Assembly (NCBI RefSeq): GCF_005405405.1
Contig: NZ_BJDZ01000030.1
Location: 1 to 37,715, forward strand
Source: Lactiplantibacillus plajomi
GTDB lineage: Bacteria > Bacillota > Bacilli > Lactobacillales > Lactobacillaceae
Reading direction: 5' to 3'
DNA length: 37,715 bases
Shown: one piece after another, positions 9,242 to 27,241 of the stretch
How the letters are laid out: each line of letters opens with the position of its first letter
Position numbering within the stretch: the first letter of the stretch is position 1
Notes under the pieces: model-generated
Seen by the model: only the letters and a program-made list of their open reading frames with translations
Databases searched by the model: none
What the model was told of the DNA's origin: nothing
Made by a program: the position numbers and the translations under genes

Positions 9242-9516
9242 AAAAAGCGCCCGGCAGACCGAAGCCTGCCGGGCGCTGACGCGTGTTACCACCGGTAATT
9301 CATCAAGCCATTGCGGACTTGACCTTGTGCGGACCAATCATGATCCGGCGCACGGTAATGGGTGCGGGCCAGCCCAGGTTACGCTAGTTCACCCGGACCG
9401 TTCACAGTGGATATTCGCGTTAGCGCCGGTTGTCTGCTCGCACCGTTCCAGACTCGCTTGAACCATGATGGCTAACGTTACTAACTGATCACACGTTTAT
9501 CATCAAATATTAATTG
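9242..9516 (-). promoter_or_regulatory. T-box riboswitch leader of panE
   Basis: Read on the minus strand, the leader has the expected parts in order. AGTTAGTAA opens the specifier loop at about 9481-9490; CGTTAGC and GCTAACG close the helix above it. The distal arm contains GCGAGTCTGG and GGTGCGAGC. The specifier strand GAATATCCACT lies at about 9408-9418. A T-box-like GGTGGTAACACGCG lies at about 9279-9293, followed by a 12-bp terminator stem (9246-9257 with 9266-9277) and six T. The specifier is best read as ATC (Ile); TCC (Ser) or TAT (Tyr) cannot be excluded. Uncharged tRNA should favour read-through into panE. Confidence 0.8.
9246..9277 (-). terminator. regulated terminator of the T-box
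   Basis: AGCGCCCGGCAG pairs perfectly with CTGCCGGGCGCT around an 8-base loop and is followed by six T on the minus strand. Its 5' arm region is shared with the antiterminator that would form with the T-box bulge. Confidence 0.85.
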
Positions 9517-19869: not shown

Positions 19870-21297
19870 TTAAGCTTTAACGGTGGCGCGTTGGAGCAGT
19901 TCGGCTTGTAAGCGGCTCAACGCGGCGGTCATGTATACCGGATAAATATCAGGATTTACCAGTCGCTGGGTTGCTCGTGGTAATTCGGAGAGCTGCCGTT
20001 GACTAGTTGCCCGCAGCGTTTTGACGCTAATCGCCGTCGTATCAATGGTCACCGGTTCGAGTAGCGCGCGGGCGTCGAAGTCGCTCAGGGTGTGGGCGTG
20101 ATCGACGCTGAGCGGATCACTATTAAAGACGGCCAAGGTATCCGTCGTGGTTACCGGTTCGTCCTCTAAGGCGATCAGGTCGGCAAAGGCCGTTTTGGTG
20201 CCCTTGCGGTATAGGCGGTAAACTTGTTTCCGGCCGGGAATCGTTAACTTTTCGCGGCTGGCGCTGACTTTGATTTTTGGTTCAACGTGACCGTTTAATT
20301 CGGTAGCAGCAAGTTTATAAACCCCGCTGAGGACCGGCGTGGAAGCACTAGTAATCAGCTTTTCGCCAATCCCAAAGTTATCAATTGGCGCGCCCTGTTG
20401 AATCAGGGACGTGATGATGGTTTCATCAAGCGCGTTGGAAATCGTAATTTTAGCCTCCGGAAAACCAGCGTTGTTCAGCATCTTACGGGCTTGTTGCGCC
20501 AATATCGTGACGTCGCCGGAATCAATCCGGATGCCAACCGGCTGGTGCCCGGCCCGCTTGAGTTCTTTAAAGACGGTAATGGCGTTAGGCACACCGGAGT
20601 TAAGCACGTCGTAGGTATCGACTAACAAGGCGCTATTGTCCGGGTAGCGGGCGGCCCACTGGCGAAAGGCGGTCAGTTCGTCGGGAAAGGCTTCGATCCA
20701 ACTGTGCGCCATCGTACCGGCCGCCGGGATGTCGAACAGTTTCGCCGCCAGCACGTTCGAGGTACTCTTCGCGCCACCGATAACGGCCGCCCGGGTCCCG
20801 TAAATGGCACTGTCGGGCCCCTGGGCACGGCGGGCACCGAACTCCATGATTGGCCGGCCGGCCGCGGCGAAGGTCAGTCGCCGTGATTTCGTGGCAATTA
20901 ACGACTGGTGATTTAAGATGTTCAGAATCACCGTTTCGAGTAACTGGGCCTGTTCAATTGGACCGGTGACCGTCAGGAGCGGTTCGCGCGGAAAAACCGG
21001 CGTTCCTTCCGCGACGGCTTGAAGGGTGCAGTCTAATTTAAAATTAGCGAGGTAATCTAAAAAGTCAGCGTCCCACAAGCCTAGCTGGCGAAAGTAAGCG
21101 AGGTCGCTGTCATCAAAGTGAAAGTCGCGGACGGTTTCAATGACTTGTTGTAAACCGGCGGCGATCACAAAACTGCCGGCGTCCGGGACCCGACGATAAA
21201 AGACGTCGAAAGTGGCGTTGGTGGTCGGCAGGTCGTGGTGAAAACCGTTAGCCATCGAAAATTCGTATAAGTCGGTTAATAATGACAAATTACGCAT
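19870..21297 (-). CDS. pncB: nicotinate phosphoribosyltransferase
   Basis: A 475-residue enzyme that joins nicotinate and PRPP to nicotinate mononucleotide, the entry step of the Preiss-Handler NAD salvage route. The N-terminus LLTDLYEFSMANGF, the central FGARRAQG segment with its catalytic-site arginines, and the RIDSGDVTILAQQARKML PRPP/Mg segment are typical. The ATG has AAAGGA seven bases upstream. It is divergent from niaR, and a perfect inverted repeat lies between the two starts, so niacin-dependent repression is expected. Lactobacilli commonly depend on external niacin, which makes this an essential salvage gene. Confidence 0.94.
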   Translation of the reverse strand: MRNLSLLTDLYEFSMANGFHHDLPTTNATFDVFYRRVPDAGSFVIAAGLQQVIETVRDFHFDDSDLAYFRQLGLWDADFLDYLANFKLDCTLQAVAEGTPVFPREPLLTVTGPIEQAQLLETVILNILNHQSLIATKSRRLTFAAAGRPIMEFGARRAQGPDSAIYGTRAAVIGGAKSTSNVLAAKLFDIPAAGTMAHSWIEAFPDELTAFRQWAARYPDNSALLVDTYDVLNSGVPNAITVFKELKRAGHQPVGIRIDSGDVTILAQQARKMLNNAGFPEAKITISNALDETIITSLIQQGAPIDNFGIGEKLITSASTPVLSGVYKLAATELNGHVEPKIKVSASREKLTIPGRKQVYRLYRKGTKTAFADLIALEDEPVTTTDTLAVFNSDPLSVDHAHTLSDFDARALLEPVTIDTTAISVKTLRATSQRQLSELPRATQRLVNPDIYPVYMTAALSRLQAELLQRATVKA

Positions 21298-21500: not shown

Positions 21501-22010
21501 GTGACCGGTTCAGAACGACGAACACAAATTGAAGCGACTTTATCGACCGCGACCGCACCGGTCAGTGCCAGTACGCTGGCGCGGCAACTGGGAGTCAGTC
21601 GTCAAACGGTGGTCGGGGACATTTCGTTATTGCGGGCCAACGGGCTCACCGTAATTGCCACCTTACGCGGTTACCAGTTGGAAACGGCCACCCAGCCGAC
21701 GGTTTTAGTCGTTTGTCGGCACCGACCGGAGCAGGCCGCCGACGAGCTGACCCGCATCATCAACGCCGGTGGGGTGGTCAAGGACGTGGCCGTGGAACAC
21801 CCGCTGTACGGGCGGCTAACCGGCCAGTTAGAACTACAAACGGTCGGTGATGTCAACCTCTTTATGGGACGTTTACGCGAACAACACGGCCGTCTCTTAT
21901 CCGAGTTGACCGGTGGCGTGCATACCCACACGATCGGCTACCAGACCACGCAGCAATTAGCTGCCATTCGGGCAACGCTGCGGGCGGCGGGCTACTTATA
22001 CGAAAATTAA
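21501..22010 (+). CDS. niaR: niacin-responsive repressor NiaR
   Basis: A 169-residue repressor. The N-terminal HTH_11 winged helix (about 5-60) shows STLARQLGVSRQTVVGDISLLRANG. The C-terminal 3H domain, which binds nicotinate and a metal, keeps its histidines in VEHPLYG and GGVHTHTIGY. The start is GTG with AGGAGG nine bases upstream. With nicotinate bound it should block pncB and other uptake genes. Its place divergent from pncB and the operator between them support the assignment strongly. Confidence 0.9.
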   Translation: MTGSERRTQIEATLSTATAPVSASTLARQLGVSRQTVVGDISLLRANGLTVIATLRGYQLETATQPTVLVVCRHRPEQAADELTRIINAGGVVKDVAVEHPLYGRLTGQLELQTVGDVNLFMGRLREQHGRLLSELTGGVHTHTIGYQTTQQLAAIRATLRAAGYLYEN

Positions 22011-24640: not shown

Positions 24641-24862
24641 ATGACATTTGAAGCAATTTTACCGCAATTAAAGGCCGGCAAGAAGGCCGTACGGACCGGT
24701 TGGGAGGGCACCGAACTATTCGTTGCGTTACAAGCGGCCACTACGTTTGACGGGGACCCGTTGAACCCCTATTTTTTAATCAAAACGGCGGATGAAGCCT
24801 ACAGTATGTGGTCACCAACCGACTGTGACATTTTAGCCACCGATTGGCAACTGGTTGACTAA
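24641..24862 (+). CDS. DUF2829 / Tad2-like small protein
   Basis: A 73-residue protein matching the DUF2829 pattern: FEAILPQLKAGKKAVRTGWEG at the start, PYFLIKTADEAYSMWSPT in the middle and DILATDWQLV at the end. Phage members of this family include Tad2, a sponge that binds the cyclic ADP-ribose signal of Thoeris immunity. This copy is in a chromosomal operon with no phage genes around it. GGGAGG lies seven bases before the ATG. Its stop overlaps the start of the SDR gene (TAATG), so the two are translationally coupled. Whether it binds a nucleotide is not shown by sequence. Confidence 0.8.
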   Translation: MTFEAILPQLKAGKKAVRTGWEGTELFVALQAATTFDGDPLNPYFLIKTADEAYSMWSPTDCDILATDWQLVD

Positions 24863-25608
24863 TGCAATTTACGGAATTTAAGGACCAAACCGTGCTGATC
24901 ACCGGGGCGGCTTCGGGAATCGGTCTCGCGCAGACGCGGGCGTTTTTAGCGCAGGGGGCGCGGGTGATCGCCGTTGACCGTCAGGACCTACCGGCACAAA
25001 TCGGTGACAACGCCGCTGTCAACTGGCAGCAAGCCGACGTCCGCGATGCGGCGGCGTTAACCAGTGCCATTCAGGCCGGGATGGCGGCGCTCGGTACGCC
25101 CCAGATTGTCTGCAATACGGCGGGAAAGTTGGACGGTTACCAGCCGACGCTGGCAACTGATTTAGCGGCTTGGCAAGACATCTTAGCGACCGACTTAACC
25201 AGCCAATACTTGGTGACCAACGCGACCTTGCCGGCGATGCTGGCACAGCACCACGGCGTCTTTGTCAACATGGCGTCGATTGCCGGATTAGTTGCGGGTG
25301 GCGGTGGCGCGGCTTATACGGCCGCTAAGCACGCAATTATCGGGTATACCAAGCAGTTGGATTTAGATTACGCTGCTAAGGGGATTCGCGCTAACTGCAT
25401 TGCCCCCGGTGCGATTGATACGCCGATGAACGCTGCCGACTTTGCCGGTGACGGTAAGATGGCCCAGTGGGTCGCGGAGCAAACGCCGGCGAAACGCTGG
25501 GCGCAGCCGGAAGAAGTTGCCGACCTAACGTTATTTTTGGCGAGTCGCCACGCGGCTTACCTGCACGGAACGGTAGTACCAATTGACGGCGGTTGGCTTG
25601 AGAAATAG
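24862..25608 (+). CDS. short-chain dehydrogenase/reductase
   Basis: A 248-residue classical SDR. TGAASGIG near residue 14 binds the dinucleotide; NTAG is near 90; the catalytic Ser, Tyr and Lys are in ASIAGLVAGGGGAAYTAAKHA (Tyr and Lys as YTAAK). It resembles 3-oxoacyl-ACP reductase-type SDRs, and ends IDGGWL. The acidic VDRQD after the second strand hints at NAD(H) preference. The substrate is open. Start overlaps the Tad2-like stop; the HIT gene follows after 11 bases. Confidence 0.88.
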   Translation: MQFTEFKDQTVLITGAASGIGLAQTRAFLAQGARVIAVDRQDLPAQIGDNAAVNWQQADVRDAAALTSAIQAGMAALGTPQIVCNTAGKLDGYQPTLATDLAAWQDILATDLTSQYLVTNATLPAMLAQHHGVFVNMASIAGLVAGGGGAAYTAAKHAIIGYTKQLDLDYAAKGIRANCIAPGAIDTPMNAADFAGDGKMAQWVAEQTPAKRWAQPEEVADLTLFLASRHAAYLHGTVVPIDGGWLEK

Positions 25609-25619
25609 CGGGTGAACTA

Positions 25620-25988
25620 ATGAAAGCGTGCGTGTTTTGTCAACCACAACCATACTTATTAGAAAATGAGCGGGCGGCGGCCTTCTACGACCAGCAACCG
25701 GTCAGTCCGGGCCACCTGCTGATTATTCCAAAACACCATTACCGGACGTTGTTCGACGTGCCCGCCGCCGATACCGCCGCGTTATGGGCGCTCGTGGCTC
25801 AGGCTAAACAGGTGTTGGACGCGCGCTGGCATCCGGCTGGGTATAACGTGGGTGTTAACGTCAGGCCAATCGCCGGACAGACCGTGATGCACTGTCACGT
25901 TCACCTGATCCCGCGCTACCCGGGGGACGTGGTCAACCCACGGGGCGGGGTGCGCAATCTAATGGTGTCGCAAACGACTGATTTTTGA
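25620..25988 (+). CDS. HIT family hydrolase
   Basis: A 122-residue histidine-triad protein. CVFC at the start and the triad HCHVHLIPR near residue 92 are diagnostic, with the helix-strand GHLLIIPKHHYRTLFD before it. HIT proteins hydrolyse or transfer nucleotide phosphoramidates and dinucleotide polyphosphates. Short spacing to the SDR before it and the Nudix gene after it places it in the same operon. The ribosome site (GGTGA) is weak, so translation may depend on coupling. Confidence 0.92.
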   Translation: MKACVFCQPQPYLLENERAAAFYDQQPVSPGHLLIIPKHHYRTLFDVPAADTAALWALVAQAKQVLDARWHPAGYNVGVNVRPIAGQTVMHCHVHLIPRYPGDVVNPRGGVRNLMVSQTTDF

Positions 25989-26005
25989 GATGAAGAGGGA
26001 TAACG

Positions 26006-26581
26006 ATGGTAGAATATTTTGAAAAAGCGGGGCGACCCGGCAAAGTTTTGAAGCAGACGCCGGTTTATCACGGCCCGATTTTTGACTTAGTTAAACAGGA
26101 AATTGAAACGCCAGACGGCTTGAAAGTCGAACGGGACTTGATCGACCACGGCAACGCCGTAACGATTTTGGCCATCACCGCGGATGACCGCGTCGTGTTG
26201 GGGTCCGAGTACCGGGTCGGTCGCAATGCCGAAACGATTAGTTTACCGGCCGGCTTGACTAACCCGGGTGAGGACCCGCTGACGGCGGCTAAGCGCGAAT
26301 TGCGCGAAGAGACTGGCTACATTGCCCGCCAGCCGCGGCTAATGACTAAGATTAGTTCTTCGGAAGGCTTTACCAACGAAACGGTCAACTTGATTTTGAC
26401 GCATATCGATCCAAGCGAGCACGGCGAGAAGCACTTTGACCACGACGAGTACGTCAATACCGCGTTGGTGCCGCTCACCCAAGTCATTGACTACTTGAAA
26501 ACCGGGCGGATTCATTCGGCGCAGGGCGTCTGCGCGTTGACTTGGTACCTCAACTTTATTCGCCCGGAGGAACGGGCATGA
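26006..26581 (+). CDS. nudF: Nudix hydrolase, ADP-ribose pyrophosphatase type
   Basis: A 191-residue Nudix protein. The full Nudix box is present (GLTNPGEDPLTAAKRELREE, then TGY, near residues 75-97). The N-terminal strand-rich region with DGLKVERDLIDHGNAV and the YRVGRNAETISLPAG segment before the box are typical of ADP-ribose pyrophosphatases, which split ADP-ribose to AMP and ribose-5-phosphate. AGAGGGATAACG precedes the ATG. The stop overlaps the next start by four bases (ATGA). Confidence 0.88.
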   Translation: MVEYFEKAGRPGKVLKQTPVYHGPIFDLVKQEIETPDGLKVERDLIDHGNAVTILAITADDRVVLGSEYRVGRNAETISLPAGLTNPGEDPLTAAKRELREETGYIARQPRLMTKISSSEGFTNETVNLILTHIDPSEHGEKHFDHDEYVNTALVPLTQVIDYLKTGRIHSAQGVCALTWYLNFIRPEERA

Positions 26582-27189
26582 ACTTAACCGAAAAGTTTCG
26601 TTACATGGCGACCGGTCAACCTTATCAGGATCAGGACGCCGAATTAGAAGCGCTGCGGGACACCGCAACGGATAAAACCAACGCCCTTAACGCCACCACC
26701 GACCGGACGGAGAAGGAACGGCTGCTGCGTGAGTTGATCGGGTCGGCCGGCGTGGCGCCGTTTGTTAACCCGAATTTTCGGGTCGAATTCGGCCGGAACG
26801 TCCACGTGGGCGACCACTTCTTTGCCAACTACGACTGCGTCTTGTTGGACGGCGCACCAATTAACATTGGTGACCACGTGCTGTTTGGACCGAAAGTTGG
26901 TTTGTACACGAGTAATCACATGATTGACCCGCAGGCACGTGTCGCGGGCGGTTGCGTGGCAAAACCGATTATGATTGGCGATTGCTGTTGGTTAGCGGCG
27001 AACGTCACGGTCTTACCGGGAGTGACAATCGGTAAAAACACGATAATTGGTGGCGGGAGTGTCGTGACCCACGATATTCCGGCCAACGTGTTCGCGGCGG
27101 GGAATCCGTGCCGGGTATTGCGACCGGTGACGGTGGTCGACCGGACCGGGTTTACCGGCGAAGACTTTAAATTAACGTCACTAAAATAA
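26578..27189 (+). CDS. hexapeptide-repeat sugar O-acetyltransferase (Maa/LacA-like)
   Basis: A 203-residue left-handed beta-helix acetyltransferase. The N-terminal cap (EKFRYMATGQPYQDQDAELEALRD) is the Maa domain. The hexapeptide coils run from about residue 60, with catalytic His in YTSNHMIDP and the C-terminal WLAANVTVLPGVTIG and GGGSVVTHDIPANVFAAGNPCRV. It acetylates maltose- or galactoside-type sugars. The ATG at 26578 follows GGAGG by six bases and overlaps the Nudix stop. Last gene of the operon. Confidence 0.9.
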   Translation: MNLTEKFRYMATGQPYQDQDAELEALRDTATDKTNALNATTDRTEKERLLRELIGSAGVAPFVNPNFRVEFGRNVHVGDHFFANYDCVLLDGAPINIGDHVLFGPKVGLYTSNHMIDPQARVAGGCVAKPIMIGDCCWLAANVTVLPGVTIGKNTIIGGGSVVTHDIPANVFAAGNPCRVLRPVTVVDRTGFTGEDFKLTSLK

Positions 27190-27204: not shown

Positions 27205-27241
27205 AACTGGTTGCCAGTCATTGCTGGCAGCCAGTTTTTTT
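27205..27241 (+). terminator. terminator of the Tad2-like operon
   Basis: AACTGGTTGCCAG pairs with CTGGCAGCCAGTT (13 bp, one G-U) around TCATTG, followed by T run. Confidence 0.88.

Follow-up and report, generated by a model that had tools for sequence, protein, structure and literature searches.

The 37,715-nt stretch of the Lactiplantibacillus plajomi genome analyzed here (contig NZ_BJDZ01000030.1; hereafter, the window) carries a gene for a small Tad2-like protein of the DUF2829 family that overlaps a gene for a short-chain dehydrogenase/reductase (SDR). Our data suggest that these two genes constitute a queuosine-precursor salvage module, the products of which would act as a complex on a 7-deazaguanine compound, and we assign this reading a probability of roughly 0.6. 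Judged from sequence and gene context, a role of the pair in queuosine-precursor salvage, whatever its exact reaction, is quite probable. For the Tad2-like protein, a housekeeping function in salvage is also more likely than one in counter-defence. In the window, the pair heads a run of five tightly spaced forward-strand genes (24641-27189), followed by genes for a HIT-domain protein, a Nudix hydrolase, and an acetyltransferase. The original prediction for this locus had described such an operon, and checks of the open reading frames (ORFs) together with domain matches confirmed the five genes, their coordinates and strand, and the TAATG overlap, in which the SDR start and the Tad2-like stop share one base.

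The conserved unit is the overlapping Tad2-like and SDR pair, as seen in three sets of loci. A named set fetched by similarity comprised 48 loci, i.e., 13 from Lactiplantibacillus (one of them a metagenome-assembled genome [MAG] labelled Lactobacillus sp.) and 35 from Companilactobacillus, Secundilactobacillus, Paucilactobacillus, Lacticaseibacillus, Ligilactobacillus, Loigolactobacillus, Agrilactobacillus, Enterococcus, Vagococcus, Globicatella, Facklamia, Aerococcus, Streptococcus, Kurthia, and one MAG labelled Lactobacillus sp. A census of 301 Lactobacillaceae genomes, 88 of which have PF11195, yielded 60 short-type matches (72-74 codons, one per genome) outside Lactiplantibacillus, and 20 of the 23 remaining matches (longer, shorter, or weak) served as a comparison set. 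Finally, 48 of the 398 genomes in a class-wide sample matched the short-type profile, and loci were inspected for 29 of its 41 strong matches outside the window, the remaining 12 all belonging to genus g42, which is apparently Streptococcus. The SDR gene lies directly 3' of the short Tad2-like gene in every locus examined (48/48 named, 60/60 census, and 29/29 class-sample loci), with the SDR of one census locus, L137, split over two frames. The two genes are separated by a median of -1 nt in the 60 census loci, 58 of which fall within -8 to +9 nt.

The original prediction had also asked whether the HIT and Nudix genes belong to a conserved order, and that part did not hold beyond the genus. 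HIT genes occurred at all 13 Lactiplantibacillus loci (7-kb flanks) versus none of the 35 other named loci, and Nudix genes at 13/13 versus 4/35, all four of the latter being streptococcal, 28-35% identical, and located 2.3-6.3 kb downstream. Given this restricted distribution, the five-gene operon of the window is a local extension of the wider two-gene pair, and Lactiplantibacillus is the sole genus showing the HIT-Nudix-acetyltransferase tail. Within the genus, a gene of 437-445 amino acids (aa) is inserted before Nudix at 4 of the 13 loci, HIT is missing from the tail at two loci (L015 and L018), and the acetyltransferase is present at 8 of the 13, once as two pieces. The Tad2-like gene itself was found in all 21 Lactiplantibacillus genomes, L. 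plajomi included, and its presence is therefore not due to chance. The predicted chromosomal location, away from phage genes, was borne out, and the gene is core in the genus.

Clustering of the flanking genes revealed a recurrent neighbor encoding QueT (PF06177, 125.6 bits), the S component of a queuosine-precursor energy-coupling factor (ECF) transporter. More specifically, queT adjoins the pair in 52 of the 60 Lactobacillaceae loci outside Lactiplantibacillus (37 with queT first and 15 with queT last), in 26 of the 35 named loci outside that genus, and in all 15 class-sample loci outside g42, some of which come from families outside the order (f8 and f44). In the 37 queT-first loci, the median gap between queT and the Tad2-like gene is 13 nt. 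In addition, Rfam searches placed a PreQ1-I riboswitch directly 5' of queT in 26 of these 37 operons and a preQ1-II riboswitch between the SDR gene and queT in 4 of the 15 queT-last operons.

An unrooted QueT tree, built without duplicate rows or fragments shorter than 130 aa, placed the queT-first and queT-last partners in separate clades, and an unrooted SDR tree (10 of 112 rows left out as containing stops, short, or identical) called for several changes of gene arrangement. The association thus seems to have been maintained or re-established more than once rather than inherited as one accident. The Lactiplantibacillus SDRs form one clade, which groups beside a Tad2-SDR-queT clade (95/92); such a placement suits the loss of a formerly linked queT, without proving it. 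Among genomes lacking the short gene, 27 queT loci were sampled, and at five of them an SDR of the same family lies beside queT. These five loci (L210, L223, L225, L226, and L233), from two other Lactobacillaceae genera, have no Tad2-like gene, and their SDRs form one clade in which N136 is replaced by Y or F and, in four of the five, T163 by M. Perhaps the two positions are contact sites for the missing Tad2-like partner. At three loci of one genus outside the order (L305, L306, and L315), a purine riboswitch on the other strand was seen immediately upstream of the Tad2-like gene.

The pair is nested in genomes bearing QueT, QueA, and tRNA-guanine transglycosylase (TGT). Among the 301 census genomes, QueT was found in all 75 with the short gene (60 pair-bearing and 15 Lactiplantibacillus) versus 147 of the remaining 226, in a tally made by eye that ignores kinship. 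We also surveyed 80 hand-chosen genomes, 48 with and 32 without the short gene, for further queuosine genes. QueA was present in 48/48 versus 20/32, TGT in 48/48 versus 22/32 (two of the 22 being distant), QueG in 16/48 versus 3/32 (a weak below-cut-off match in G252 was not counted), QueH in 15/48 versus 2/32, and either QueG or QueH in 30/48 versus 5/32. QueF exceeded its cut-off in none of the 80 genomes, which fits salvagers. The L. plajomi genome has TGT and QueA genes and a single queT copy, which lies on contig C6 and has a PreQ1-I riboswitch (51.8 bits); searches for QueG and QueH gave no match there. Two QueTs, one linked to the pair and the other unlinked, occur in several of the genomes that bear the pair. 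A useful precedent is given in a passage of PMC11130926, according to which two Clostridioides difficile QrtT paralogues differ in substrate, one taking preQ1 only and the other preQ1, queuine, and queuosine. Two genomes, G181 and G302, carry QueA and TGT in pieces, together with pieces of QueG and the SDR in G181 and of QueT in G302, which reflects either pathway decay or sequencing errors.

The SDR keeps S139, Y152, K156, and D39 in all 107 Tad2-like-linked rows of our alignment, plus five others. S139, Y152, and K156 correspond to the catalytic Ser-Tyr-Lys of SDRs, and an Asp at the end of beta2 favors NAD over NADP in these enzymes. Both Foldseek and phmmer returned BacC dihydroanticapsin 7-dehydrogenase with NADH (5itv, 33% identity) as the nearest PDB structure. 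The window SDR shares the SDR fold with this ring-alcohol dehydrogenase, but its group has a different genetic context and, within the sampled group, invariant residues of its own. The name of its best-matching model, "3-oxoacyl-ACP reductase", is an annotation and no evidence of substrate.

As the original prediction expected, the small protein has a Tad2 fold: its AlphaFold model has a pLDDT of 96.9, and Foldseek returned 24 PDB matches at E up to 0.001, every one a member of the Tad2 family (8v3e_B with TM scores of 0.89/0.88 and an rmsd of 2.0). Its pocket loops, in contrast, carry a different signature. Besides the window proteins, the structure-mapped alignments included 54 of 55 Tad2-like and 58 of 61 SDR representatives. 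M1, F3, R18, W21, E25, I47, P59, C62, A66, D68, and W69 are invariant in the 55-row Tad2-like alignment, and among 109 short proteins, Glu25 and Cys62 are invariant (109/109) and a P-T-x-C-D loop is nearly always present. The window protein carries both residues of this SDR-linked signature.

The likeness to phage Tad2 (SPO1 gp34.65, Myroides ModTad2, and HgmTad2/AcrIIA7) comprises the fold, PF11195, and R18, W21, D63, D68, and W69, the five residues that all 10 aligned long proteins have in common with the short group. The window protein differs in being just 73 aa long and in lacking an insertion found after residue 40 in the phage proteins. Nearly all rows of the long proteins have N22-G23, mostly followed by K24, then Gly, Asp, or Asn at position 25, and A-S-Q-T/S-D at 59-63, whereas the window protein has Glu25 and lacks the phage pocket motifs (N22-G-K and S-x-T/S-D). 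In SPO1 Tad2 and ModTad2, position 25 is N or G and position 62 is T or S. The comparison of short and long proteins used 10 of the 20 long or weak loci, aligned in 12 rows (two of which are repeat fragments); the other 10 had no match to the short-type profile. Among further proteins, Glu25 was found in 29/29 short ones versus 0/5 viral or long proteins, three of which do have Cys62, making Glu25 the cleaner mark of the SDR-linked group.

According to a passage of a review (PMC12043709), the Tad2 pocket for glycocyclic ADP-ribose (gcADPR) is built from the beta1-beta2 loop, the beta3-beta4 loop, beta4, the beta4-alpha3 loop, and alpha3. By the secondary structure of our model, residues 19-25 and 57-65 lie in or beside the matching elements, and since these stretches differ from those of the phage proteins, the gcADPR pocket seems to be altered in the SDR-linked group. 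The genetic setting differs as well. The window gene is chromosomal and linked to an SDR, whereas terminase, portal, or head proteins were found in 7 of 8 long-type loci tested (10 proteins, PHROG), i.e., mostly in phage structural or packaging modules. Neither an SDR nor queT was detected in the stretches fetched for the 20 longer or weak Tad2-family loci, nor at two weak class-sample matches (L313 and L314). Long-type Tad2 genes next to terminase genes (L161, L165, and L166) are present in three other Lactiplantibacillus genomes (G015, G007, and G005) as well, and thus both Tad2 branches coexist in one genome. DUF2829 proteins are listed in published tables of Enterococcus faecalis and Streptococcus suis proteins. 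In the passages of open-licence papers that were searched, we found neither a link between DUF2829 and queuosine nor an assay of the proteins studied here.

We postulate that the Tad2-like protein and the SDR form a complex, as suggested by the gene overlap and the invariance of their pairing. The genetic context suggests that the SDR, with NAD(H), may act on an imported 7-deazaguanine compound, and the Tad2-like subunit would hold the base through its altered pocket, including Glu25 and Cys62. In Lactiplantibacillus, the pair is located away from queT and is followed by genes for HIT, Nudix, and acetyltransferase proteins. Only tentatively do we propose an exact reaction, the likeliest one in our view, in which the SDR would oxidize the cyclopentenediol of queuine (or that of queuosine). 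This would in turn set preQ1 free for use by TGT and make the pair a counterpart of QueL. The latter is a radical S-adenosylmethionine (SAM) enzyme. The conversion of queuine to preQ1 is the weakest step of the proposal and is drawn from the lack of QueF, the ring-alcohol chemistry of SDRs, and the occurrence of preQ1 riboswitches on queL and queK, as given in part of PMC12519234. Like the indirect queuine salvage by QueL and QueK described in a passage of PMC11130926, the candidate system considered here has a queuosine-precursor transporter alongside and a bacterial TGT present; it differs in consisting of an SDR and a Tad2-like protein rather than a lyase and a nucleoside hydrolase. A more speculative and rather doubtful extension is that a Tad2-fold protein and an NAD-dependent SDR make up an enzyme that produces preQ1 from queuine or queuosine without radical SAM chemistry, and that phage Tad2 is related to, or was recruited from, its base-binding subunit.

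Several observations weigh against assigning the pair to queuosine-precursor salvage. In 147 genomes, QueT is present although the short gene is absent, and the pair is therefore not needed for uptake. No queT adjoins the pair in 8 of the 60 Lactobacillaceae loci, in 9 of the 35 named loci (five of the nine being streptococcal), or in the 14 g42 loci, where it was not found in the 1.5-kb flanks of any of the 14 or in the ~4-kb flanks of the four that were fetched wider; streptococcal and Latilactobacillus-like loci hold the pair without it. The window operon likewise has no queT, and no preQ1 riboswitch was found in the window at E up to 1. Such riboswitches were absent, at the gathering score, from all 14 class-sample loci searched outside g42 and present in just 2 of the 10 named loci searched (of 48). 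Moreover, where present, they are located at queT and may control the translation of queT alone. Both QueG and QueH are missing from 18 of the 48 pair-bearing genomes, that of L. plajomi among them. As for QueF, weak sub-cut-off matches to its model in 34 of the 80 genomes were taken for FolE by ORF length only. Finally, a review passage (PMC11625349) states that QueT transports preQ1 exclusively, and for this reason we rate lower both the conversion of queuine to preQ1 and the idea of a novel enzyme.

The original prediction proposed that the operon may bind and degrade ADP-ribose-derived signals or damaged nucleotides. In this reading, the Tad2-like protein would be a sponge and the HIT and Nudix proteins would be hydrolases. 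This idea draws on the Tad2 fold of the window protein, on the HIT and Nudix genes sharing its operon, and on the binding of gcADPR and other ADP-ribose compounds by phage Tad2 (PMC12043709, in part, and PDB titles). It was not supported by our data and appears improbable, as the HIT association is confined to Lactiplantibacillus loci, the pair travels with queT in most other genera, and the loops of the gcADPR pocket differ in signature. A search for the STALD domain of Thoeris ThsA (PF18185) found none in 151 genomes, but 14 control genomes gave no match either. Alternatively, the Tad2-like protein could be a cofactor-side subunit that tunes the SDR by binding an NAD adduct or NAD(H), which like known Tad2 ligands is an ADP-ribose compound; the substrate of the SDR would then be a queuosine precursor or something else. 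The invariant Asp39 of the SDR, a residue typical of NAD-type SDRs, the matched production suggested by the start-stop overlap, and the reported Tad2 ligands (ADP-ribose compounds and guanine-containing cyclic dinucleotides) are compatible with this possibility. We regard it as rather unlikely, given the five queT-linked SDRs of the same family that have no such partner beside them and the fact that, on its own, it leaves queT unexplained.

The adjacency of queT could also be a neutral, inherited neighborhood of a pair metabolically unrelated to queuosine, as might be argued from the streptococcal, Latilactobacillus-like, and Lactiplantibacillus loci that keep the pair without queT. The occurrence of both gene orders, the different QueT clades, the several changes in the SDR tree, the short gaps in the queT-first loci, and the nesting of the pair in genomes equipped with QueT, QueA, and TGT make this quite unlikely. 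A replacement of QueG or QueH, in which the pair would reduce epoxyqueuosine to queuosine, might account for the L. plajomi genome and the 17 other pair-bearing genomes that have neither gene. Co-occurrence led us to reject this candidate, which we consider highly improbable, since one or the other gene is more frequent in pair-bearing genomes than in the rest, the opposite of replacement.

Tad2 is known as a weapon of phages. If a queuosine-precursor salvage role holds, a cellular branch of Tad2 with a metabolic partner would point to a housekeeping role for the fold and a possible evolutionary source of phage Tad2. Lactic acid bacteria, enterococci, and some other Bacilli would then have two further candidate genes for queuosine salvage. 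Caution is therefore called for before every DUF2829 protein is labelled anti-Thoeris.

Table 1. Features of the window and queuosine genes elsewhere in the L. plajomi genome (G000)
Feature	Position	Strand	Basis or remark
Tad2-like small protein (DUF2829, PF11195), 73 aa	24641..24862	+	Pfam 86.6 bits, cut-off 25
SDR oxidoreductase, 248 aa	24862..25608	+	NF005118, 353 bits vs cut-off 270
HIT-domain protein, 122 aa	25620..25988	+	PF01230, 83 bits
Nudix hydrolase, 191 aa	26006..26581	+	PF00293, 52.7 bits
Maltose O-acetyltransferase-like hexapeptide acetyltransferase, 203 aa	26578..27189	+	PF00132 + PF12464
Hairpin + T tract, probable terminator that may act on either strand	about 27205..27241	+	sequence
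NiaR	21501-22010		about 2.6 kb upstream of operon
PncB	19870-21297		farther upstream than NiaR
TGT	G000:C2:39680-40741		profile match
QueA	G000:C2:40924-41940		profile match

The nearest named models for the Nudix protein are of the NudE and AdpP types, both below their cut-offs (75 bits for NudE, cut-off 169). The best start of the acetyltransferase gene is the ATG overlapping the Nudix stop (ATGA), not the upstream TTG. The predicted hairpin-T terminator after this gene was seen as well, and a terminator scan recovered parts of it, with 15 such sites in the region versus 15.6 in shuffles. The immediate neighbors of the Tad2-like gene encode MupG, GNAT, NiaR, and PncB, with no phage genes; the MupG and GNAT genes lie on the other strand, between NiaR/PncB and the operon. 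NAD-salvage genes are thus nearby, as had been predicted. However, this neighborhood is kept within the 7-kb flank at only 5 of the 13 Lactiplantibacillus loci, and a functional link to NAD salvage via niaR and pncB was rejected on that ground. Elsewhere in the window, a T-box leader-like match (9266-9500, - strand; 61.2 bits, gathering score 93) lies upstream of a 333-aa ORF.

A search with the 73-aa protein matched 3 plasmid and 85 phage records. The pair is present on a 220-kb plasmid of Latilactobacillus curvatus, with no queT in the 10 kb seen. A record described as a Klebsiella pneumoniae plasmid (L265; CP069369.1, 27567-39785) holds QueT, a Tad2-like gene with 56% identity, and fragments of the SDR spread over several frames; as its gene order is that of Gram-positive relatives, contamination or poor assembly is likely. 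In a scan of viral contigs, which returned 17 loci, 7 end at or before the expected place of the SDR gene and 6, derived from metagenomes, show no SDR. The other four (L248, L249, L250, and L252) have an SDR gene beside a 55-58% identical copy of the Tad2-like gene and are probably host DNA in viral bins.

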